Source: a bacterium
GTDB lineage: Bacteria > Sysuimicrobiota > Sysuimicrobiia > Sysuimicrobiales > Segetimicrobiaceae
NCBI GenBank assembly: GCA_035295165.1
Contig: DATGJN010000002.1
Location: forward strand, 1 to 47,505
Length of the DNA: 47,505 bases
Reading direction: 5' to 3'
Positions 35,656-47,023 of the stretch are shown here, piece by piece. How positions within the stretch are numbered: the first letter of the stretch is position 1; each line of letters begins with the position of its first letter. The notes beneath the pieces were generated by a model. It ran no database searches. It was not told the origin of the DNA and saw only the letters and a program-made list of their open reading frames with translations. A program made the position numbers and the translations under genes.

Positions 35656-36222
35656 TCAAGAGACCTCTGTGGACGGCGCCCGGAGCCAGGCGAGATCTAT
35701 CCAGGTGCGCTCACGGCGCACCGGCCGCTTCGCGTTGCGGGTGAAGATCGCGACCTCGCCCCAGGGTTCGTGGGGCTGCGTCCACTGTGCGAATCCGAGA
35801 CGCGCAAGCGACGCGCTGCGGCAGACGACGCCTTCGAACGCCGCCGCATGCCACGTGCTGGCCGCCCGCTGGGTGTCTGCTTTGGTCACCCCGGTGGGGT
35901 ACGCCGATGGCAGCCCTGCCGTCGCGAGGCCTGCGGGGGTCGCCGCATCCACCAGCTCACCGCGCCAGCCGAGCTCGTGCAACACCGGGAGGGCGTCCGG
36001 CTGCAGATCTTCGAGGACCACGCCGGAGCGGCTGAAGAGATCGTTGGCCACCGACCGGGCGACCGCCAGGCTACAACACGCATACAGCGCGGGGAAGTCC
36101 GGAGTGTTCCACCGGTTGTCGCGCCTGGTCTGACTGTACGACGCATCCTCCGACATCGTGTGCCGGCGCGCCAGCACCCGGTAGACGTTGTGGGTGTGCG
36201 GCATGAGCCGCGCGGCGGTCAT
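35656..36222 (-). CDS. RES-domain toxin (type II toxin-antitoxin)
   Basis: A 188-residue protein with the RES fold of NAD+-degrading toxins: NVYRVLARRH with the first conserved Arg, NTPDFPALYACCSLAVARSVANDLF for the Arg/Tyr/acid block (here divergent, no clear Glu), and AAFEGVVCRSASLARLGFAQW with the conserved Ser region. RES toxins deplete NAD+ when free of their antitoxin. Its ATG overlaps the antitoxin's TGA as ATGA. The divergence of the acidic active-site residue leaves activity open. Confidence 0.8.
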   Translation of the reverse strand: MTAARLMPHTHNVYRVLARRHTMSEDASYSQTRRDNRWNTPDFPALYACCSLAVARSVANDLFSRSGVVLEDLQPDALPVLHELGWRGELVDAATPAGLATAGLPSAYPTGVTKADTQRAASTWHAAAFEGVVCRSASLARLGFAQWTQPHEPWGEVAIFTRNAKRPVRRERTWIDLAWLRAPSTEVS

Positions 36223-36965
36223 GCCTGATACGACAGGGCGAGATCGTACCGATCTGCGACGTCCGCAATCCGCCCCCGCCGGATCCAGTCGATCGCGCGC
36301 TCCCCACTGAACACTTCGGCGGGGCGGCGGATCACTTCCGGAAGCCGCTCGGGACGGAAGAGCGCGACCAACCGCTTGAGGGCGTCCGCGGCGCTGTCGA
36401 GCTTGGCCAGCTTCGCCTCCGGGATGGACCCCGTGCCGTGCGACCATCGACGGATCGTCTCGCCCGACACCTCGAGCACAGGGCCGAATTCGTCGTGGCT
36501 CATTCCGAGCCCGCCGAGGAGCTCGGCGAGCAGGGCTGGCCCCCGCGACACCTTGGCCTGGGCGATGAGGACCCCGGACACCGTGGCGGAAAACATCCGG
36601 AGCGTCCCATCGTCCGCGGGACCGGGCCGACAGTGCGTACGAGTGGGAACCGCCGCGACGGGATCGCCACGGTAGAACCGCCACTTGATCATCAGGAGGC
36701 GGGTCGCCTCGCGCCGATGCCCCCGCTGGTAGCACAGAAACGGCGCGAACGCGTCCTGCACCACGGCCCCGGCAACGACCAGACCCGTGTCCGGCCGGAG
36801 GCCCGCCTGCTTCCCGAGTGCGGTGAAGAACTCGCTGATCTCGACCACAAACACCCGGATCCCCTCGGCGCTGCCACGCTCAAGGAGTCGGTTGAGCGTA
36901 CGATGTGTCGCGAGGCGGCGCTCCAGGTCTGCCTCGGCTCGGCGAAGTGCCACGGACTGTGGCAT
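36219..36965 (-). CDS. Xre/MbcA/ParS-family antitoxin with a long N-terminal extension
   Basis: A 248-residue protein. Its C-terminal half has an Xre-like HTH (LGMSHDEFGPVLEVSGETIRRWSHGTGSIP) and then the DUF2384 toxin-binding domain (ALKRLVALFRPERLPEVIRRPAEVFSGERAIDWIRRGRIADVADRYDL). Known Xre antitoxins of RES toxins have about 130-160 residues; here ~120 extra N-terminal residues of unknown fold precede the HTH. ATG at 36965 has GGAGG ten bases upstream. It is co-transcribed with, and overlaps, the RES toxin gene. Confidence 0.82.
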   Translation of the reverse strand: MPQSVALRRAEADLERRLATHRTLNRLLERGSAEGIRVFVVEISEFFTALGKQAGLRPDTGLVVAGAVVQDAFAPFLCYQRGHRREATRLLMIKWRFYRGDPVAAVPTRTHCRPGPADDGTLRMFSATVSGVLIAQAKVSRGPALLAELLGGLGMSHDEFGPVLEVSGETIRRWSHGTGSIPEAKLAKLDSAADALKRLVALFRPERLPEVIRRPAEVFSGERAIDWIRRGRIADVADRYDLALSYQA

Positions 36966-37759: not shown

Positions 37760-37790
37760 GCGGGTGCCCCCGGTCGCCGGGGGCACCCGC
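37760..37790 (-). terminator. GC-rich hairpin terminator of molybdoenzyme 1
   Basis: GCGGGTGCCCCCGG and its complement form a perfect 14-bp stem with a TCG loop, 19 bases beyond the stop at 37809. There is no T tract. Confidence 0.75.
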
Positions 37791-37808: not shown

Positions 37809-40271
37809 CTACGCGCCTTGGATCGGCGCGTAGTCGTTCGGGCGCTCGCCCCCGTAGTGCTTCTCGATCTGGACGAGGTTCGTATACGCCACCGGCCCCT
37901 GCGCCAACTGGGACGTCCCACGCTGCGATGTCAGGACGTTGGTGCAGCCGCCGCGATCGAGGCTGCCGATCTTGCCCGGCTCGGCCGGTGTATACCACGC
38001 ACCCTCGTGGAGCAACGCCACGCGTGCGCGCACGCGCTCCGAGACCACCGCCGCGGCCAGGACCTGTCCCCGATCGTTGAACACCCGCACCACGTCCCCG
38101 GTCGTGATCCCGCGGGCCGCCGCGTCCGTGGGATTGATGACCACCGGCTCGTACCCCTTGACCTTGCTGTACTGATGGAGCTCCTGCACGTTGTCGTAGG
38201 ATGAGTGCCGCCGCCAGATCGGGTGTTTGGTGATCAGGTGGAACGGGTACGTTGCCGCCTTCGGGCTGCCGAGCCACTCAAACGGCTCCATCCACTGGGG
38301 CGTGGGCGGACAATCCGTATAGCCGAGCTTCGCGATCGCCGCCGAGTAGATCTCGAGCTTCCCAGACGGCGTGTTGAGTGGGTTCGCGTTCGGGTCCTTG
38401 CGAAAGGCCGCGAAGCCCACGTACGGGGTCTCGTCAATCGGCAACATGTAGTAGCCGACCTCTTTGAACCGCTCGTAGCTCATCGGAATCTGGGCGGACG
38501 CGTAGATCTTCCGCAGCCACTGGTCCGCGGTGTCGAGGCCCATCGTGAACCTATCCTTGAACCCGAGTCGCGCCGACAGGTCCCGAAACACGTCAAAGTC
38601 GGATCGGGATTCCCCGAGCGACTCGATCGCCTTGTGCTGGTAGACCACGTACCGCCACGTCTGGCTGATGTCGTCGCGTTCAAGGAGCGTGTTGATCGGC
38701 AGCACGATGTCCGCGTGCCGCGCCATCGGCGTCCACCAACTGTCCTGCACGATGATCGTCTCCATCTTGCGGAACGCCTGGAGGTTTCGGTTGACCTCGT
38801 CGTGTTGGTTGAGCGTGGAGCCCCCGACCCAGTAGATGAGCTTGATCTCCGACTTCCCCGGCTGCGGATACTGGTAGGTGTTGCCGTTGTGATGCAGCGT
38901 CACCGGCGCGTTCAGGACCGCGTTCGCGAACTGCTGGTCCAGCACGATCTGCGTCACCGGATTCTGCACCCCGGGGAATCCCGCGGGGCCCCGGCCCTTG
39001 ATGCGCGCGTCGCCGGCCGATCCGAAGCCCGGGATCGACGCGGTGAGCCCGCCGCCCGGGAGCCCGAACTCGCCTTTCAGGGCGGCCAGCGTGATGAGCA
39101 TCCGCACCTGCTGCTCGCCGTGATCTTGCCGCTGGATCCCGAACCCCGTCGTGATCTTCACGCGGGAGGTGCCCGCGTATTCGTGCGCGAGGGCCCGGAT
39201 CCGCTCCGCGGGGATATCCGTCAGCGCCGCCGCCCACTCCGGCGTCTTCGGCTGCTTGTCCGTCTCCCCCATCACGTACTGCCGGAACGGCTCGAATCCG
39301 ACCGTGTACGTGTCGATGAACCCCTTGTTGTAGAGGTTTTCGGTGAGCATCACATACGCCATGGCTGCGATCAGCGCCGAGTCGGTGCCGGGTCGGATCG
39401 GGATCCACTGCTGAGACACCTCGGCGGTCTCGGTGTAGACGGGGTCGATCGTGATGAGCTTCCCGCCCCGCTGCTTGAACGCGGCGATCCACTCGTACGT
39501 GCGGCCCTGCAGCGGCCCGACGACCTTCTGGACGTTCATCGGGTCGCTGCCCCACACGATCACCAGGTTGCTGTTGGCAACCGTGTCCGCCCACGAATCG
39601 TCGGGAAAGATCACGCCCCAGGAGTACGGCGCCGCCCACTGCCACGCGGCGTAACTCTTGTTGCCGATGCGGTTCGTGTACCCGCCGTAGAGGCTCAAGA
39701 AGCGGCTGAGCTGGCCTGTCTTGGTGTTCAACAGCCCGGTCGTAGACCACCCGCCGATCATGCCGCCGAAGATCCCCTCGTTGCCGTAGCGCGTCTTGAC
39801 ACGCTTGAGTTCCTGCGCCACGAGGTCCAGCGCTTCGTCCCAGCTCACCCTCCGATAGCGCGGCACCCCCCGGGTCGCGCGATTGCCGCCCGCGCCGGGC
39901 TTCCAGTCCGCCCGTACCATCGGGTACAGGATCCGATCCGGCGCGTATGTGCGGTGGTGCCAGTTCAACGCCATCGGCGACGCCACGTTGTTGGGGTAGT
40001 CGAGGCTGCTGACCCGGGTGATGCGCCCGTTCAGCACGTGCACGTCGATCAGCCCCTCGTTGTCGGCGCTCGCGAGGACCCGCTCGGTCCCGGCGGGCGG
40101 TTCCAGTGGCGACGCCGCAGGCATGGCGGCCGCCGCCGCAGGCCGAGGCTGGAGCGCGGCTCCCAGCAATGACGTACTCGCCGCCGCGGCACCGACACCC
40201 CTCAGGAACTCCCGGCGGCGTACCCGGCCCCGCGGTGCCTTCGCGTCGGTCCGCTCGGATGATTCACTCAT
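37809..40271 (-). CDS. Tat-exported molybdopterin oxidoreductase, DMSO reductase family (paralogue 1)
   Basis: An 820-residue catalytic subunit. The Tat signal is RVRRREFLRGVGAAAASTSLLGAAL (twin Arg at 18-19). No CxxC...C Fe-S motif follows it. Mo-bisMGD regions seen: RRVSWDEALDLVAQELKRV, GGMIGGWSTTGLLN, candidate Mo ligand Ser206 in GNKSYAAWQW, VIVWGSDPMN, and the C-terminal cofactor domain with INPTDAAARGITTGDVVRVFND. In overall length and lack of Fe-S it is like TorA/BisC, but the Ser context (KSYAAWQWAAPYSWG) is reminiscent of transhydroxylase-like members. Substrate unknown. ATG at 40271 has GGAGGGG at six bases. It is highly similar to the gene at 41815-44286. Confidence 0.92.
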   Translation of the reverse strand: MSESSERTDAKAPRGRVRRREFLRGVGAAAASTSLLGAALQPRPAAAAAMPAASPLEPPAGTERVLASADNEGLIDVHVLNGRITRVSSLDYPNNVASPMALNWHHRTYAPDRILYPMVRADWKPGAGGNRATRGVPRYRRVSWDEALDLVAQELKRVKTRYGNEGIFGGMIGGWSTTGLLNTKTGQLSRFLSLYGGYTNRIGNKSYAAWQWAAPYSWGVIFPDDSWADTVANSNLVIVWGSDPMNVQKVVGPLQGRTYEWIAAFKQRGGKLITIDPVYTETAEVSQQWIPIRPGTDSALIAAMAYVMLTENLYNKGFIDTYTVGFEPFRQYVMGETDKQPKTPEWAAALTDIPAERIRALAHEYAGTSRVKITTGFGIQRQDHGEQQVRMLITLAALKGEFGLPGGGLTASIPGFGSAGDARIKGRGPAGFPGVQNPVTQIVLDQQFANAVLNAPVTLHHNGNTYQYPQPGKSEIKLIYWVGGSTLNQHDEVNRNLQAFRKMETIIVQDSWWTPMARHADIVLPINTLLERDDISQTWRYVVYQHKAIESLGESRSDFDVFRDLSARLGFKDRFTMGLDTADQWLRKIYASAQIPMSYERFKEVGYYMLPIDETPYVGFAAFRKDPNANPLNTPSGKLEIYSAAIAKLGYTDCPPTPQWMEPFEWLGSPKAATYPFHLITKHPIWRRHSSYDNVQELHQYSKVKGYEPVVINPTDAAARGITTGDVVRVFNDRGQVLAAAVVSERVRARVALLHEGAWYTPAEPGKIGSLDRGGCTNVLTSQRGTSQLAQGPVAYTNLVQIEKHYGGERPNDYAPIQGA

Positions 40272-40372
40272 GGTTCCCCTCCTTCGGCGGGCGCGCGACC
40301 GTCTGCGCGCTCGCCCTCATGGTCTCACGCTACCAACCCCCGGCCGGGTGGAGTATCCGGTCTCTACCTGAT

Positions 40373-40405
40373 TTGACGGGAAGCCAGCGTTCATCGAATC
40401 TTCAC
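40373..40405 (+). promoter_or_regulatory. Promoter-like element and two 11-bp repeats
   Basis: TTGACG (40373-40378) is followed by TTCAT (40390-40394) and TTCAC (40401-40405), an 11-bp period as at 37652-37678. They lie in the divergent gap between molybdoenzyme 1 and the small membrane ORF, so one regulator may act on both sites. The -10 match is weak. Confidence 0.35.
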
Positions 40406-40454
40406 GACATCCGCGCGGGTTCTTCGCACCGTCGGGCCGGCCCGTGGGGACAAC

Positions 40455-40562
40455 ATGAGTGCGTGGATCACGCGCGGAGAGGGGGTACAAACCATGTTGA
40501 TTGCGCTGCTTCTACTCGCGGGGCTGGCAATGTGGGCAACCGGTCACCTCATTCTCCAGTAG
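40455..40562 (+). CDS. Small membrane peptide (35 or 22 residues)
   Basis: The frame has two possible ATG starts, 40455 and 40494. The shorter reads MLIALLLLAGLAMWATGHLIL, a single transmembrane helix; the longer adds a short charged N-terminus (MSAWITRGEGVQT). GGAGAGGGGG lies 8-17 bases upstream of the second ATG, which favours 22 residues. A 15-bp hairpin terminator starts eight bases after the stop. SD, hydrophobic peptide and terminator together make chance unlikely. It may be an accessory subunit for a membrane complex; no family is recognised. Confidence 0.55.
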   Translation: MSAWITRGEGVQTMLIALLLLAGLAMWATGHLILQ

Positions 40563-40570
40563 GCACACGT

Positions 40571-40604
40571 ACGCCCCGGCGGAGGAACGCCTCCGCCGGG
40601 GCGT
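40571..40604. terminator. Bidirectional GC-rich hairpin terminator
   Basis: ACGCCCCGGCGGAGG and its exact complement form a 15-bp stem with an AACG loop. It lies between the stop of the small membrane ORF (plus) and the stop of the GGDEF gene (minus), and can serve both. Confidence 0.8.
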
Positions 40605-40622
40605 GGATCGCCCCCGCCCTCC

Positions 40623-41672
40623 CTATCGTCGTCCGGACTGGCGCACCCCGTTTCTCACGAACAGGCGCTTCATCTTGCGCAACCGGTTGTCAGCCTCCCG
40701 CAGGAGCCCTTCGGGGGTCTGCGCGTCCTTCGGCCATGTCGCGAGTCCGCACGAGAGACTCGCGTAGGAGCCGGCTTCCCGCATGTGGGGCACGGTGATC
40801 CGCACCGGACGGAGCCGCGCGACCAGCTTCTCCGCCTGGGCGGCCGTCGTCTCCGGGAGGAGCATGCCGAACTCGTCCCCGCCCCACCGCGCCACCATGT
40901 CGGAGCCGCGCACGTAACGGACCAGCAGATCCGCCACGTGGGCGAGCAGCTCGTCGCCCGCGGCGTGGCCGTGCACGCTGTTGATGATCTCAAACCCGTC
41001 GATGTCGAGCAGCACGACGCTGAGTTGGCGCCCCGTGCGCCGGTTGCGAGCGATCTCCGACCCAAGGCGATCCAGAAAACTCTGCCGGTTGGCCACGCCC
41101 GTGAGGGCGTCGGTCGCCGCGAGTTGCTTCAACTGCTCGTTGAGCCGCGCCACCTCCACCGCTCCCGCCAGATAGCGCCCGACCACCGTGAGGAGACTGA
41201 GGTCGGCCTCCGTGAACGCGCCCGGGGCGGCGGCGTAGGCGCTCAGGACCCCGATGGCGCGGTCGCTGACGACCAGTGGGGCGTAGATGCCTGACTTGAC
41301 CTTCCCCCCACGCGGGAGCGTCCCGCCGTCAGGGGACAGGTTCGAGATGAGCAACGGGACCTTGCGGTCCATGACGGTCCCGTGCAACCCCTTGTCTCGG
41401 GGCAGCGCCGCGCCCCGCGATTTCGCCCAGAGGCCCGAGGCGGCCCGAACGGTCAACGCGTTCGGCACGCGCTCGTCCAGCAGCGCGATCGTGCACGAGT
41501 CGAACCCCGTCTCCTCGTGGAGCGCCAGCATCACCCGCTCGAGCAGGGTCGGCAGCGACCGGACCGCCGCGAGGTCGTTTGCGAGACGCGCAAGAAAGAG
41601 GAGCGCCCGGTCCGGCTTCGCGGCGCCGGCTCGGGCTCCGTCCCCGGAACGTGACGAAGACACTTTCGACAT
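40623..41672 (-). CDS. GAF-GGDEF diguanylate cyclase
   Basis: A 349-residue cytosolic protein. A GAF domain (~25-175: LPTLLERVMLALHEETGFDSCTIALLDE to YAPLVVSDRAIGVLSAYA) is followed by a short helix and a GGDEF domain (~180-345). The active site is intact as GGDEF (264-268, RWGGDEFG), and the allosteric c-di-GMP inhibition site RxxD is RGSD (255-258) at the exact five-residue spacing. It should make c-di-GMP in response to a ligand or redox state sensed by GAF. It is inserted between molybdoenzymes 1 and 2, on the same strand but with its own terminator. Confidence 0.93.
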   Translation of the reverse strand: MSKVSSSRSGDGARAGAAKPDRALLFLARLANDLAAVRSLPTLLERVMLALHEETGFDSCTIALLDERVPNALTVRAASGLWAKSRGAALPRDKGLHGTVMDRKVPLLISNLSPDGGTLPRGGKVKSGIYAPLVVSDRAIGVLSAYAAAPGAFTEADLSLLTVVGRYLAGAVEVARLNEQLKQLAATDALTGVANRQSFLDRLGSEIARNRRTGRQLSVVLLDIDGFEIINSVHGHAAGDELLAHVADLLVRYVRGSDMVARWGGDEFGMLLPETTAAQAEKLVARLRPVRITVPHMREAGSYASLSCGLATWPKDAQTPEGLLREADNRLRKMKRLFVRNGVRQSGRR

Positions 41673-41760
41673 GTGTCGGGTCCCCTGGACAGGTCAATTT
41701 GCTCGTTAGTAGCGTGCCCATCTTCCGCGCCCGTGAGACGCCCGCGCGGCCGGTAACGCC

Positions 41761-41786
41761 GTGCGCCCCCGGATTCGGGGGCGCAC
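41761..41786 (-). terminator. GC-rich hairpin terminator of molybdoenzyme 2
   Basis: GTGCGCCCCCG-GATT-CGGGGGCGCAC, a perfect 11-bp stem 29 bases beyond the stop at 41815, without a T tract. Confidence 0.75.
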
Positions 41787-41814
41787 GGTCGTCGCCGGGA
41801 CGCATGTGCCGGCG

Positions 41815-44286
41815 TTAGGTGGGCTGGATCGGCGCGTAGTCGTTCGGACGCTCCCCGCCGAAATGCTTCTCGATCTGCACCAGCCCGGTGTGACAGACCG
41901 GCCCCTGCGCGAGCTGCGACGTGCCCCGCTGGGCGGTCAGGCTGTTAGCGCACCCGCCTACGTCCAAGCTGCCGAGCTTGCCCGGCTCCGCGGGTCGGTA
42001 CCAGGAACCCTCGTGCAGGATCACGACCCGCGGGCGCACCCGTTCGGTCACCAACGCGGCGGCCAGCACCTGTCCGCGGTCGTTGAAGACCCGGACGACG
42101 TCGCCGGTCTCGATGCCACGGCCCGCGGCGTCCTTGGGATTGATGAACACCGGCTCGTACCCCTTGATCTTGCTGTACTCGTGGAGCTCCGCCACGTTGT
42201 CGTACGACGAGTGCCGGCGCCACCGCGGGTGCTTGGTCAGGAGGTGCAGCGGATACTGCTTCGCCTTCGCGCTGCCGAGCCACTCAAACGGCTCCATCCA
42301 CTGCGGCGTCGGCGGGCAGTCCGCGTAGCCGTACTTCGCGATCTGCTGCGAGTAGATCTCGATCCGCCCCGATGGCGTGTTGAGGGGATGCGCGGCCGGA
42401 TCTTGGCGAAAGTCCGCGAAGGCGACGTACGGCGTCTCGTCGGTCGGCAGCGTGTAGAAACCGACCTCCCGGAAACGTTCGTAGCTCATCGGGTTCTGGG
42501 CCTGCGCGTAGAGTCTCCGAAGCCACAGGTCCTCGGTCTCGAGGCCCATCGTGAACTTGTCCTTGAACCCGAGCCGCGCGGAGAGCGCCGTGAACACCTC
42601 GAAGTCCGACTTCGATTCGCCGAGCGGCTCGATGACCTTGTGCTGGTACACGACGTACCGCCAGAACTGGGTGATGTCGTTGCGCTCGAACACGGTGTTG
42701 ATCGGCAGGACGATGTCGGCCATCCGCGCCGCGGGCGTCCACCAGCTGTCCTGCACGATGATCGTCTCCATCTTCCGCAGCGCACGAAGGTTCTCGTTGA
42801 TCTGGTCGTGTTGGTTGAGCGCGGCGCCGCCCACCCAGTAGATCAGCTTCACCTCCGCCTTCCCCGGTTGCGGGTACTGGTACGTGTTGCCGTTGTGGTG
42901 CAGCGTGACCGGGGCGTTGAGGAGCGCGTGCGCAAACTGCTGATCCAGCAGCACCTGTGTCACCGGATTCTGGACGCCCGGGAATCCCGCGGGACCCCGG
43001 CCCTTCAAGCGGGCGTCGCCGGCGCCGGCGAACCCGGGAAGCTCGAACGACAGGCCGCCACCAGGCAGGCCGAATTCGCCTTTGAGCGCGGCCAGCGTGA
43101 TCAGCATCCGCACCTGCTGCTCGCCGTGATCGTTGCGTTGGATGCCGCGCGCACAGGAGATCTTCACGCGGGGCGTCTGCGCATACTCGTGGGCGAGCGC
43201 GCGGATCTTGTCCACCGGGATCTCGGTCAACGCCGCCGCCCACTCCGGCGTCTTCGGCTGCTTGTCCGTCTCCCCCATCACGTACTGGCGGAACGGCTCG
43301 AAGCCGACCGTGTACTTGTCCACAAAGTCCTTGCTGTAGAGGTTCTCGGTGAGCATCACGTACGCGATCGCCGCCATCAGCGCTGAATCGCTGCCGGGGC
43401 GGATCGGGATCCACTCGTCCGAGATCTCCGCGGTTTGCGTGTACAGCGGGTCGATCGTGATCAGCTTGATACCCCGCTGTTTCATCGTCGTGATCCAGTT
43501 CCGGACCCGAGCGTACGACGGGGCGCGGACCTTCCACGAGTCCATCGGATCCGAGGCCCAGAAGATGAAGATCTTCGTGTTGGCGAGCGTGTCGGCCATC
43601 GAGTCGTCGGGGTACATCTGCCCCCAGGAGTACGGAGCGCCCCACTGCCAGCACGCGTAGCTCTTGTTGCCGATCAGGCTCGTGTACCCGCCGTACAGGC
43701 TCAGGAAACGGCTGATCTGGCCGATCTTGGCGTTGAGGTTGCCGGCGGACTGCCATCCGCCGAACACGCCGCCGAGGATCGCCTCGTTCCCGTACCGCCC
43801 CTTCACGCGCTTGAGCTCCTGGGCGACGAGGTCGAGGGCCTCACTCCAGCTCACGCGCCGGTAGCGAGGCACTCCCCGCGTCGCGGGGTCGCCGCCGCCG
43901 GGCTTCCAGCCCACGCGCACCATGGGGTACAAGATCCGGTCGGACGCATATACGCGATGGTGCCAGTTGAGCCCCATCGGCGACGCCTCGTTGTTGGGAT
44001 AGTCGAGGCTGCTCACCCGGACGATCCGCCCGTCTTTGACGTGGACGTTGAGGAGCCCCTCGCTGTCGGCGCTCGTCAACACCCGCTCGGTGCCGGCCGG
44101 CGGTTCGAGCACGGCCGGCGGCGCGCCGGGCGCGGGGGCGGCCGCGGTCGGTGTCAGCACCGCCGGCACGCCGAGCAGCGACGCACCGCCCGTGGCCGCG
44201 CCGATCCCCAACCCGCGGAGGAACCGGCGACGGCTCAATCCCGAACGAGCGGTGACCGTGCGAACCCCTTGCCTGGGCGTCTCCAT
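41815..44286 (-). CDS. Tat-exported molybdopterin oxidoreductase, DMSO reductase family (paralogue 2)
   Basis: An 823-residue catalytic subunit, near-colinear with paralogue 1. The Tat signal is GLSRRRFLRGLGIGAATGGASLLG. No N-terminal Fe-S cysteine motif. The candidate Mo ligand is Ser209 in GNKSYACWQWGAPYSWG. Long shared blocks (GETDKQPKTPEWAAALT, GRGPAGFPGVQNPVTQ, IVQDSWWTP) run through both proteins to the same C-terminus (GGERPNDYAPIQ). Differences cluster in the Mo-site flank (SDPMDSWKVRAPSYARVRNW against SDPMNVQKVVGPLQGRTYEW), which suggests a changed substrate pocket. ATG at 44286 has GGAGGAG upstream. Confidence 0.92.
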   Translation of the reverse strand: METPRQGVRTVTARSGLSRRRFLRGLGIGAATGGASLLGVPAVLTPTAAAPAPGAPPAVLEPPAGTERVLTSADSEGLLNVHVKDGRIVRVSSLDYPNNEASPMGLNWHHRVYASDRILYPMVRVGWKPGGGDPATRGVPRYRRVSWSEALDLVAQELKRVKGRYGNEAILGGVFGGWQSAGNLNAKIGQISRFLSLYGGYTSLIGNKSYACWQWGAPYSWGQMYPDDSMADTLANTKIFIFWASDPMDSWKVRAPSYARVRNWITTMKQRGIKLITIDPLYTQTAEISDEWIPIRPGSDSALMAAIAYVMLTENLYSKDFVDKYTVGFEPFRQYVMGETDKQPKTPEWAAALTEIPVDKIRALAHEYAQTPRVKISCARGIQRNDHGEQQVRMLITLAALKGEFGLPGGGLSFELPGFAGAGDARLKGRGPAGFPGVQNPVTQVLLDQQFAHALLNAPVTLHHNGNTYQYPQPGKAEVKLIYWVGGAALNQHDQINENLRALRKMETIIVQDSWWTPAARMADIVLPINTVFERNDITQFWRYVVYQHKVIEPLGESKSDFEVFTALSARLGFKDKFTMGLETEDLWLRRLYAQAQNPMSYERFREVGFYTLPTDETPYVAFADFRQDPAAHPLNTPSGRIEIYSQQIAKYGYADCPPTPQWMEPFEWLGSAKAKQYPLHLLTKHPRWRRHSSYDNVAELHEYSKIKGYEPVFINPKDAAGRGIETGDVVRVFNDRGQVLAAALVTERVRPRVVILHEGSWYRPAEPGKLGSLDVGGCANSLTAQRGTSQLAQGPVCHTGLVQIEKHFGGERPNDYAPIQPT

Positions 44287-44314
44287 GAGATTCTCCTCCT
44301 CGCCTGCTCGCCTA

Positions 44315-44341
44315 CGGGGCGGACCGGATCGGTCCGCCCCG
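44315..44341 (-). terminator. GC-rich hairpin terminator
   Basis: CGGGGCGGACCG-GAT-CGGTCCGCCCCG, a perfect 12-bp stem 36 bases beyond the stop of the 68-residue protein gene and upstream of molybdoenzyme 2. Confidence 0.75.
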
Positions 44342-44376
44342 CTCCTGCTCGACGACCTCCGCCCGGAGCCGGCAGG

Positions 44377-44583
44377 CTACCGAATCACCGGCAGGTCGGT
44401 CGTCATCAACTCGTTGCTCACGTGTTTGAGAATCGCCTTGGCGTCCGCCTCGCTGGCGAACGACCGGATGACCACCTTCTCTCCTCCCGAGAACGTAATA
44501 GTCAACGATCCCCCCTCGACGGTGAGCTGTCGGACATGATCAAGGTTGATCAGGGTTCGCTCATCGCCGAGGGTGAGCCACAT
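44377..44583 (-). CDS. 68-residue protein of unknown function, overlapping molybdoenzyme 3
   Basis: MWLTLGDERTLINLDHVRQL, then a beta-rich middle (GGSLTITFSGGEKVVIRSF) and a helix (SEADAKAILKHVSNEL). The pattern suggests a small beta-barrel with one helix, a cytosolic protein without cysteines. The ATG lies 23 bases inside the 3' end of molybdoenzyme 3 and has GGAGGTGGGG at about seven bases, so it is co-transcribed. It may assist maturation or regulation of that enzyme, by location only. Confidence 0.75.
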   Translation of the reverse strand: MWLTLGDERTLINLDHVRQLTVEGGSLTITFSGGEKVVIRSFASEADAKAILKHVSNELMTTDLPVIR

Positions 44584-47023
44584 CGCCCCACCTCCGGGCG
44601 CGGTAGTTGAGCGGCCAGGCCACCGCGGTCTTCGGCGGCGCGAACGCCGTGATGGTTGGCGGCATGCCGACGTACTTCTCGATCTGCACCAGCGCGGAGT
44701 GCGACGGGTTCCCGTCCGACAGCTTCGAGTTCGGCGCGTCCGTGCTCACGGCGTTGATGCTCCCGTGGCGATCGAGCGTGCCGAGTTGCCCGGGGGTCAG
44801 CGGATCGTACCACCCACCCTCGTGCATTGCAACGACGCCACGGCGCGTCCGCGCGGTGACCACGGCGCCGGCGAGGGTCTGCCCCCGGTTGTTGAACACC
44901 CGCACGACGTCGCCGTTGGCGATCCCGCGGGCCGCCGCGTCCGACGGATTGATCCAAATCGGCTCGCGCTCGGCGACTTCGTACCGCTCCCGGAGACGGG
45001 TCTGATCCAGCTGCGAGTGCAGTCGGTCCTTCGGATGGGGCGACAGTAGATGCAGCGGGTAGCGCGCCGTCTTCTCGCTCCCGAGCCACTCGTCCGGCGC
45101 GAGCCAGGTCGGGTGGGGCGGGCAGTCGTCGTACTTGAACCCCGCGATCGCCTCGGAGTAGATCTCGATCTTCCCCGACGGGGTGCCGAGCGGATGGTTG
45201 ACCGGGTCGGCGCGGAACTCCGCGTATCCCACCAGCTGGTTCGCCGCATCCGTCACCGAGAACTCCAGGTATCCTTGCTGCCAGAACGCGTCGAATTCCG
45301 GCATCGCGAGCCCGCGGGCCTTCGCCTGCTGCTGGGCCGTCGCGTAGAACTGGCGCAGCCACGCCATCTCGTCCTCCTTGCCTTCCGTGTACTGGGCGCC
45401 GACGCCCAGGCGCCCGGCGAGCGCGGCACAGATGTCGAAGTCGTCGCGCGCCTCGAACAGCGGCGGCACGATCTGCGGCATCGCCGCGATGAACCGGCTC
45501 GTGCCCACGATATCGTTGCGCTCGAGCGTGGTCGTCGCCGGGAGCACAATGTCGGCGTGCTTCGCCGTCGCCGTCCACGCGTACTCGTGGACGATCGTCA
45601 CCTCGGGGCGCTGCCACGCTTGCACGACCCGGTTGACGTTCTGGGCGTGATGGAACGGGTTGCCTCCCGCCCAATACACCAACTTGATGTCCGGATACGT
45701 GACCTTCTGCCCGTCGTAGTCGATCGTCTTACCGGGGTTGAGCAGCATGTCCGTCCACATATTGACGGGGACGAAATCCTTGACCGGGTTCGTGCCAGTG
45801 GTCAACCCTGGGACGGCGGGGGCGGTCCCGAGCGGCGCCCCCACCCGGGACGGAAAGTCGATCTGCACGCCGCCGCCCGGCAGCCCGAGCTGGCCCAGCA
45901 TCGCGGACAGCGTGATCATCATCCACACCGGCTGTTCTCCGTGGACCGCCCGCTGCAGCGGATAGCCGCCCATCAGCACCGTGCGGGACTTCGCCATGCG
46001 GCGCGCGAGCGCGCGGATCGTCTCGACCGGTACGTCGGTGATCGGCGCGGCCCATTCCGGCGACTTCGGCTGCCCGTCAGCCTTGCCGCTCAGGTAGTCG
46101 GCGAACTTGTCGAACCCGACCGTGTACTTGTCCAGGAACGCCCTGTCGTGGAGGTTCTCGGTGTAGAGCACGTGCGCCAGCCCGAGCATGAGCGCGGTGT
46201 CGGTGTTCGGCCGAATCGCGATGTGTTGGGGCTTCAGGAACTGGTCCGTGTCGGTCTCGAGCGGGTTCACGGACACGACCGGGATCTTCGCGTCGCGCAG
46301 CTGCCTCACGAAGTCCATGACGAGGTGTCCACCGTCCCCCGACAGCACCTCGGCGTTGACGAACGGATCGTATCCGAACATGACCACCAGCTGGCTGTTC
46401 TTGATGAGGCTCGGCCACGCCGACGCTTTCGGCGACGCGTCTCCCACCACGTGCGGGCTGATCACCGGCAGCGTGGGCGCGCTGTAGGTGTTGACGTAGT
46501 ACACATAGCCGCCGAGGAGCACCAGCAGGCGCTGCATGGCCTGGCTCGCGCCGTGCAGCCGGCCGGGACTCTGCCACCCGTAGCTACCGCCGAAAATGGC
46601 ACGGTTGCCGTACTGCATCTTGACCCGCCGCAACTCGTCCGCCACGATGCCGAGCGCCTCGTCCCACGAGACGCGCACGAACGGTTCGACGCCGCGCCCG
46701 GCGGTGTCACTACGTGACCGATTCCGATAGAACCCCTCCCGGATCATCGGGTACTTCACGCGATTCGAGGTGTACAGCAGGTCCGGCATAACCGTGACCA
46801 TGGGGTTGGGGTGCGGATCTTTCGCGAACGGCAACGTCCGCATGAGCCGGCCGCCGACCACCTCCGCGTTGAACAGGCCCCAGTGCGCGTTGGTCAGTTT
46901 GGTCAGCGTCCCGCCGGCGATCGCGGCGTCTGCGGGCGCGAGACGGATCAATGGCGCGGCGACCAGACCGCCCACCGCGATTCCGCCCTGCCACAGGAGC
47001 TCACGCCGCGTGATGGTTCTCAT
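44561..47023 (-). CDS. Tat-exported molybdopterin oxidoreductase, TMAO/biotin-sulfoxide reductase-like
   Basis: An 820-residue catalytic subunit close to TorA/DorA/BisC. The N-terminus RTITRRELLWQGGIAVGG is a weak Tat signal. Active-site marks match DorA: GGSYGWQSPGRLHGA with the Tyr148/Trp150 equivalents of Tyr114/Trp116, and the Mo ligand Ser181 in NTYSAPTLPVISPHVVGD. No Fe-S motif is present, as usual for this group, which reduces S- or N-oxides in the periplasm. The usual pentaheme TorC/DorC partner is not in the window. ATG at 47023 follows GGGGGGATA; a longer read from 47038 is possible. The 68-residue protein overlaps its 3' end. Confidence 0.93.
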   Translation of the reverse strand: MRTITRRELLWQGGIAVGGLVAAPLIRLAPADAAIAGGTLTKLTNAHWGLFNAEVVGGRLMRTLPFAKDPHPNPMVTVMPDLLYTSNRVKYPMIREGFYRNRSRSDTAGRGVEPFVRVSWDEALGIVADELRRVKMQYGNRAIFGGSYGWQSPGRLHGASQAMQRLLVLLGGYVYYVNTYSAPTLPVISPHVVGDASPKASAWPSLIKNSQLVVMFGYDPFVNAEVLSGDGGHLVMDFVRQLRDAKIPVVSVNPLETDTDQFLKPQHIAIRPNTDTALMLGLAHVLYTENLHDRAFLDKYTVGFDKFADYLSGKADGQPKSPEWAAPITDVPVETIRALARRMAKSRTVLMGGYPLQRAVHGEQPVWMMITLSAMLGQLGLPGGGVQIDFPSRVGAPLGTAPAVPGLTTGTNPVKDFVPVNMWTDMLLNPGKTIDYDGQKVTYPDIKLVYWAGGNPFHHAQNVNRVVQAWQRPEVTIVHEYAWTATAKHADIVLPATTTLERNDIVGTSRFIAAMPQIVPPLFEARDDFDICAALAGRLGVGAQYTEGKEDEMAWLRQFYATAQQQAKARGLAMPEFDAFWQQGYLEFSVTDAANQLVGYAEFRADPVNHPLGTPSGKIEIYSEAIAGFKYDDCPPHPTWLAPDEWLGSEKTARYPLHLLSPHPKDRLHSQLDQTRLRERYEVAEREPIWINPSDAAARGIANGDVVRVFNNRGQTLAGAVVTARTRRGVVAMHEGGWYDPLTPGQLGTLDRHGSINAVSTDAPNSKLSDGNPSHSALVQIEKYVGMPPTITAFAPPKTAVAWPLNYRARRWGDVAHPRR

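Follow-up and report, generated by a model that had tools for sequence, protein, structure and literature searches.

We favour, with moderate confidence, the reading that the three molybdoenzymes encoded at this locus, MoA, MoB and MoC, are periplasmic single-subunit reductases of the S-/N-oxide type that use a shared electron chain encoded elsewhere in the genome, and that their genes were inserted around a native gene pair. With this shared chain to draw on, the enzymes would need no dedicated partners. The novelty of the locus lies in MoA and MoB. The window, by which we mean the whole stretch of DNA analysed, is a complete contig of 47,505 bp, and the gene neighbourhood that was read covers this contig, including the MoC side up to the contig end. 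The genes are transcribed from the minus strand in the order MoC, 68-aa gene, MoB, GAF-GGDEF gene, MoA:

44561-47023, minus strand: MoC, predicted exported reductase of the DorA/TorA/BisC family with DMSO reductase-type Tyr/Trp/Ser pocket residues
44377-44583, minus strand: conserved small protein of 68 aa, overlapping the 3' end of MoC (homologues at 59-81%)
44314-44342, minus strand: GC hairpin after the 68-aa gene and before MoB, 13-bp perfect stem, -30.8 kcal/mol
41815-44286, minus strand: MoB, predicted exported, divergent Ser-ligand bis-MGD enzyme
41759-41788, minus strand: GC hairpin after MoB, 13-bp perfect stem, -36.4 kcal/mol
40623-41672, minus strand: GAF-GGDEF diguanylate cyclase, with matches to both domains
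40571-40604, minus strand: GC hairpin after the GGDEF gene, 15-bp perfect stem, -35.7 kcal/mol
37809-40271, minus strand: MoA, 77%-identical paralogue of MoB
37760-37790, minus strand: GC hairpin after MoA, 14-bp perfect stem, -35.3 kcal/mol

The original prediction described three Tat-exported catalytic subunits, two of them close paralogues and the third a TorA/BisC-like enzyme, with no partner subunits. This description was borne out. All three large proteins matched PF00384 and PF01568 in a profile search and carry twin-arginine motifs (VRRREFLRG, LSRRRFLRG and ITRRELLWQ), MoA and MoB are 77% identical by tblastn (75.5% over a global alignment), and MoC is the TorA/BisC-like member. Neither the open reading frames nor the profile matches within the 47,505-bp window included an electron-transfer partner gene.

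MoC carries PF18364 (Molybdopterin_N) in addition to the two shared domains, and in the alignment it has a Ser Mo ligand and no 4Fe-4S Cys motif. It scored 1004.9 bits on TIGR00509 (bisC_fam; curated cut-off 1017.55), and the family phylogeny, which had been proposed as a check, placed it inside the DorA/TorA/BisC radiation. MoC keeps the SY-GW and YS motifs; SY-GW holds the counterparts of Tyr114 and Trp116 of the Rhodobacter DMSO reductase, and the Ser ligand is kept as well. It thus resembles the type III DMSO reductases in domain set, Tat motif, pocket residues and lack of a 4Fe-4S motif, and differs from them in having no adjoining TorC. Its clade comprises four putatively exported paralogues from other contigs of the same genome (C96, C104, C22a and C22b; C96 is 82% identical to MoC) and genes of two congeners (G001 and G002), and so far appears restricted to this genus. 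C22a and C104 lack the Tyr114 equivalent, as does E. coli TorA, and the paralogues differ exactly at the SY-GW motif. Tyr114 is linked to the preference for DMSO versus TMAO. With this residue varying among them, the paralogues may between them serve different oxides.

The absence of partners had been taken as a possible mark of an uncharacterised system; for MoC this view did not survive a search of the rest of the genome. Contig C22 carries the reductases C22a and C22b beside genes for a TorD-like chaperone (PRK04976, 124.5 bits, E 5e-36), a TorB-like protein, a Rieske protein and a fusion of cytochrome b with a cytochrome c domain. The TorB-like protein has 240 aa and one haem motif (monohaem); it aligned to the TorC model TIGR02162 (E 1e-32) only over positions 198-380 of 387, the C-terminal half, and to residues 210-360 of E. 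coli TorY (E 8e-25). The genome gave no match to the NapC/NirT/TorC quinol dehydrogenase family (PF03264), with an E. coli positive control matching; the proposed search for co-occurring cytochromes returned the TorB/Rieske/cytochrome b-c set and no NapC/NirT cytochrome. PF13247 ferredoxin genes number only two in the genome, on contigs C69 and C80 and not on that of the window. The TorB and Qcr genes are unlinked to the window.

In Campylobacter jejuni, TMAO reduction needs QcrABC, and TorB is a soluble monohaem protein homologous to the C-terminal domain of TorC, for which it is the proposed replacement (PMC6195509). The C22 set matches this mechanism: judged by homology, TorB would again be a detached TorC C-terminal domain and a Rieske/cytochrome b complex the electron source, and a NapC/TorC quinol dehydrogenase is likewise lacking. 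Unlike in C. jejuni, the tor and Rieske/cytochrome b genes share one cluster here, the cytochrome b carries a fused cytochrome c domain, and the partner set apparently serves five or more exported catalytic paralogues. With E. coli TorCAD/TorYZ the genome has in common a homologous catalytic subunit (MoC), a TorD-like chaperone and the TorC C-terminal domain, whereas no NapC-type membrane haem domain like that of TorC/TorY was found in it. The C22 genes are thus likely the missing partners of MoC, encoded in trans.

This assignment is further supported, without being proven, by co-occurrence. The TorB-like cytochrome is present in 3 of 43 genomes of the phylum, namely this one and the two congeners, and the same three contain the family members with a Tat motif. 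The members of G007 and G013 and the one on contig C103 of this genome show no Tat motif; the enzyme start in G009 was not placed, and its export status lies outside the comparison. One point stands against the shared chain: BisC-type enzymes that carry no export motif, C103 among them, show that some relatives must depend on other donors. For MoC, the partner puzzle largely dissolves, and the in-trans circuit offers a testable answer for enzymes of this type. The C22 contig also adds a non-Campylobacter cluster that joins reductase, chaperone, TorB-like and Rieske/cytochrome b-c genes, a link that the C. jejuni work proposed functionally.

A different arrangement was seen in Neorhizobium (L083:1534-3195, L091:1-611), where the gene before torD-torA encodes a c-type cytochrome in which a C-terminal portion with a match to the TorC C-terminal domain is fused to haem domains other than NapC. 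Rhodovulum has the same gene order.

Alongside the fold family, export motifs, phylogeny, co-occurrence and synteny observed here, we infer an electron route in this organism in which the Rieske/cytochrome b-c complex would oxidise menaquinol and pass electrons to the soluble monohaem TorB, the putative detached TorC C-terminal domain, which would in turn reduce MoC, MoA and MoB; the TorD-like chaperone would serve their maturation. For MoC, the shared chain is proposed because of family membership, clade and co-occurrence. MoA and MoB would use the same chain inasmuch as they keep the fold and the Ser ligand and have no 4Fe-4S motif. Speaking against this extension, they lie outside the family known to use TorC/TorB, which leaves their docking to TorB hypothetical, and their pocket carries transhydroxylase-like aromatic residues.

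The wider placement of the enzymes here follows a published MopB survey that unites RhL/PgtL, DmsA and DorA/TorA/BisC as Ser-coordinating enzymes (PMC10100899). We compared MoA and MoB with each of these. A DmsABC-type (type II DmsA) system was rejected, as the alignment shows no N-terminal 4Fe-4S Cys motif and the window no DmsB or DmsC. With DorA/TorA/BisC the two proteins share the fold, the Ser ligand, the Trp of the GGW motif, the IQRxDHGE motif and the lack of a 4Fe-4S motif. Membership nevertheless fails: they scored 700.1 (MoA) and 688.9 bits (MoB) on TIGR00509, below the cut-off of 1017.55, lack Molybdopterin_N (PF18364) and the Tyr114 equivalent, have KSYA(A/C)WQW where the family has DYSTGAAQV, and split off later than RhL/PgtL, as sister to the entire DorA/TorA/BisC radiation (SH-aLRT 98 and 100, in trees from quick searches with SH-aLRT support alone, which included pyrogallol transhydroxylase, PTH, and three PTH-like proteins).

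The original prediction held that the KSYA(A/C)WQW context recalls transhydroxylases. The resemblance itself is real: the motif aligns with DSWEGWHW of PTH, whose sequence was checked against PDB 4v4c, and the region around the Ser ligand reads GNKSYA(A/C)WQW(A/G)APYSWG in MoA/MoB, NPDSWEGWHWGGMHMWG in PTH and GDYSTGAAQVILPRVVG in TorA. Like RhL/PgtL, MoA and MoB have an aromatic residue after the Ser ligand, W-x-W-(G/A), a PG(F/Y)xxxG loop and no 4Fe-4S motif in the alignment of catalytic subunits, and the positions of the Ser ligand, W179, W181 and W187 are common to PTH and both proteins. Family membership, on the other hand, was weakly rejected (p-AU 0.027 for a joint clade with PTH relatives included; 0.052, marginal, with PTH alone). 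In contrast to RhL/PgtL, MoA and MoB are predicted to be exported and form a separate branch, there is no nearby 4Fe-4S beta subunit gene, Trp, Lys and Phe stand at the positions aligned with PTH His144, Asp174 and Tyr404, and PTH Tyr152 is absent. PTH residues are numbered as in its structure.

Taken together, MoA and MoB appear to be a deep orphan branch, a mosaic of a PgtL-like S-Y-x-x-W-x-W pocket and a TorA-like remainder, including the IQRxDHGE and GGW motifs. An AlphaFold2 model of MoB (pLDDT 86.6, 30-row alignment) had Rhodobacter DMSO reductase as its best predicted structural match in the PDB (TM 0.92, versus 0.77 for PTH, both target-normalised). No relative of MoB above 43% identity was detected in about 800 distinct genomes (43 of the phylum, a domain sample of 386, and 18 and 396 of two further phyla), a pattern scan of 84,980 species genomes returned only matches of 23-24%, and the best plasmid match had 39% identity; these searches sample diversity, and the absence of close relatives is not thereby proven. 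As predicted, the paralogues differ around the Mo site, with Phe in MoA versus Arg in MoB and Ala versus Cys. Their dN/dS of 0.235 is consistent with both being under purifying selection.

Because the pocket is remodelled, the substrate of MoA and MoB is probably bulkier or aromatic, an N-/S-oxide or a similar oxo-acceptor, and the two are most likely exported reductases with a changed substrate; the direction of the reaction, too, we infer. As an intermediate branch, they are suited to asking how Ser-ligated molybdoenzymes switched between O-atom removal (TorA/BisC) and ring hydroxylation (RhL/PgtL). It is conceivable, though rather unlikely, that MoA and MoB found a lineage in its own right: exported, single-subunit, Ser-ligated bis-MGD enzymes placed between the phenol hydroxylases (RhL/PgtL) and the S-/N-oxide reductases (TorA/BisC), with a mosaic active site and acting on a substrate that neither family is yet known to use.

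It is unlikely that MoA and MoB are exported aromatic hydroxylases or transhydroxylases of the RhL/PgtL kind, whose Ser-ligated Mo would be the site of oxygen transfer to a phenol ring, with electrons delivered to periplasmic cytochromes. The shared S-(Y/W)-x-x-W-x-W-(G/A), W/F-G and PG(F/Y)xxxG motifs, not seen in the TorA, BisC and DmsA rows shown, would fit such a function, as would MoB being the closest row to PTH outside its family (33%) and the pair forming the next branch of the tree after RhL/PgtL. A single clade is disfavoured by the p-AU values given above, however, the three PTH residues are not kept, DMSO reductase is the nearer match by both fold and sequence score, and the 4Fe-4S subunit found adjacent in all three RhL/PgtL-type loci read is not present at MoA/MoB. 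Among large plasmids, those of Salipiger, Ensifer and Burkholderia (L087, L088 and L089) carry genes 48-49% identical to PTH, and a 4Fe-4S dicluster gene comes after each of them. At a strict cut-off, searching the domain sample (386 genomes) with PTH gave no match, which is uninformative as an absence.

We regard it as quite improbable that MoA and MoB are non-respiratory, periplasmic repair or scavenging reductases of the methionine or biotin sulfoxide type. BisC-type relatives do include solitary catalytic subunits with no partner, for example a Bosea plasmid gene, and the genome holds several lone paralogues. No linked methionine or biotin genes were recognised in the window, though, and the exported members are found in genomes that also encode a cytochrome set of the respiratory type.

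The favoured reading, shared-chain reductases inserted into the locus, also accounts for the remaining genes as bystanders. The predicted diguanylate cyclase is present, with an intact RGSD-5-GGDEF motif; that it and the 68-aa protein belong to the molybdoenzyme system is disfavoured by synteny. In both congeners, the 68-aa gene (81% and 75%) and the same GGDEF gene are neighbours on one strand with no molybdoenzyme nearby, about 300 bp apart in G002, and the stretch carrying them (L106, L107) has matches to window blocks lying from 14.8 to 26.5 kb. This synteny places the contig in the genus. In the present genome, MoB lies between the two genes, and MoC runs up to the 68-aa gene's ribosome-binding site, which falls inside the MoC 3' end. 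Because the congeners keep the pair without molybdoenzymes, the three molybdoenzyme genes look inserted around a pre-existing pair, and the cyclase and the 68-aa gene are probably native to the locus and no part of the system. A single operon in which c-di-GMP made by the cyclase, together with the 68-aa protein, regulates the molybdoenzymes is highly improbable: same strand, close spacing and an intact GGDEF motif would suit it, whereas the congeners have the pair without the enzymes and hairpins stand between the genes.

Each of the three enzyme genes had been said to have its own terminator, which is partly right. Hairpins do come after four genes, those for the 68-aa protein, MoB, the cyclase and MoA, and at -31 to -36 kcal/mol they stand apart from random 110-nt stretches (-17.7 +/- 4.0 kcal/mol). 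None follows MoC, which overlaps the 68-aa gene; all four lack a T tract, and a scan for intrinsic terminators found none. The four GC hairpins likely act as terminators.

Several minor observations concern the surroundings. In G001, two other ORFs separate the 68-aa and GGDEF genes (L106:1022-2198), at the place of MoB here, and this gap has the look of a hot spot for insertions. Both congeners carry, upstream of their 68-aa gene, a 165-nt stretch (L106:225-389, L107:7605-7769) that folds into one long closed structure (-87 kcal/mol); it had no Rfam match and no BLAST match in the window, and Rfam gave no match in the window or the syntenic loci. Two very small proteins had been predicted; the small proteins found are the 68-aa protein (44377-44583) and a conserved 22-aa ORF, MLIALLLLAGLAMWATGHLILQ (40494-40562, plus strand), on the strand opposite the cyclase and just beyond its gene. 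Both congeners have the latter too, with three substitutions (L106:3683-3751, L107:9625-9693), and it is likely a membrane micropeptide. At 35656-36965 on the minus strand, near the inserted genes, a RES-domain protein (PF08808) is preceded by an overlapping gene that reads like an Xre/DUF2384-type antitoxin, with no Pfam match; together they probably form a toxin-antitoxin pair.
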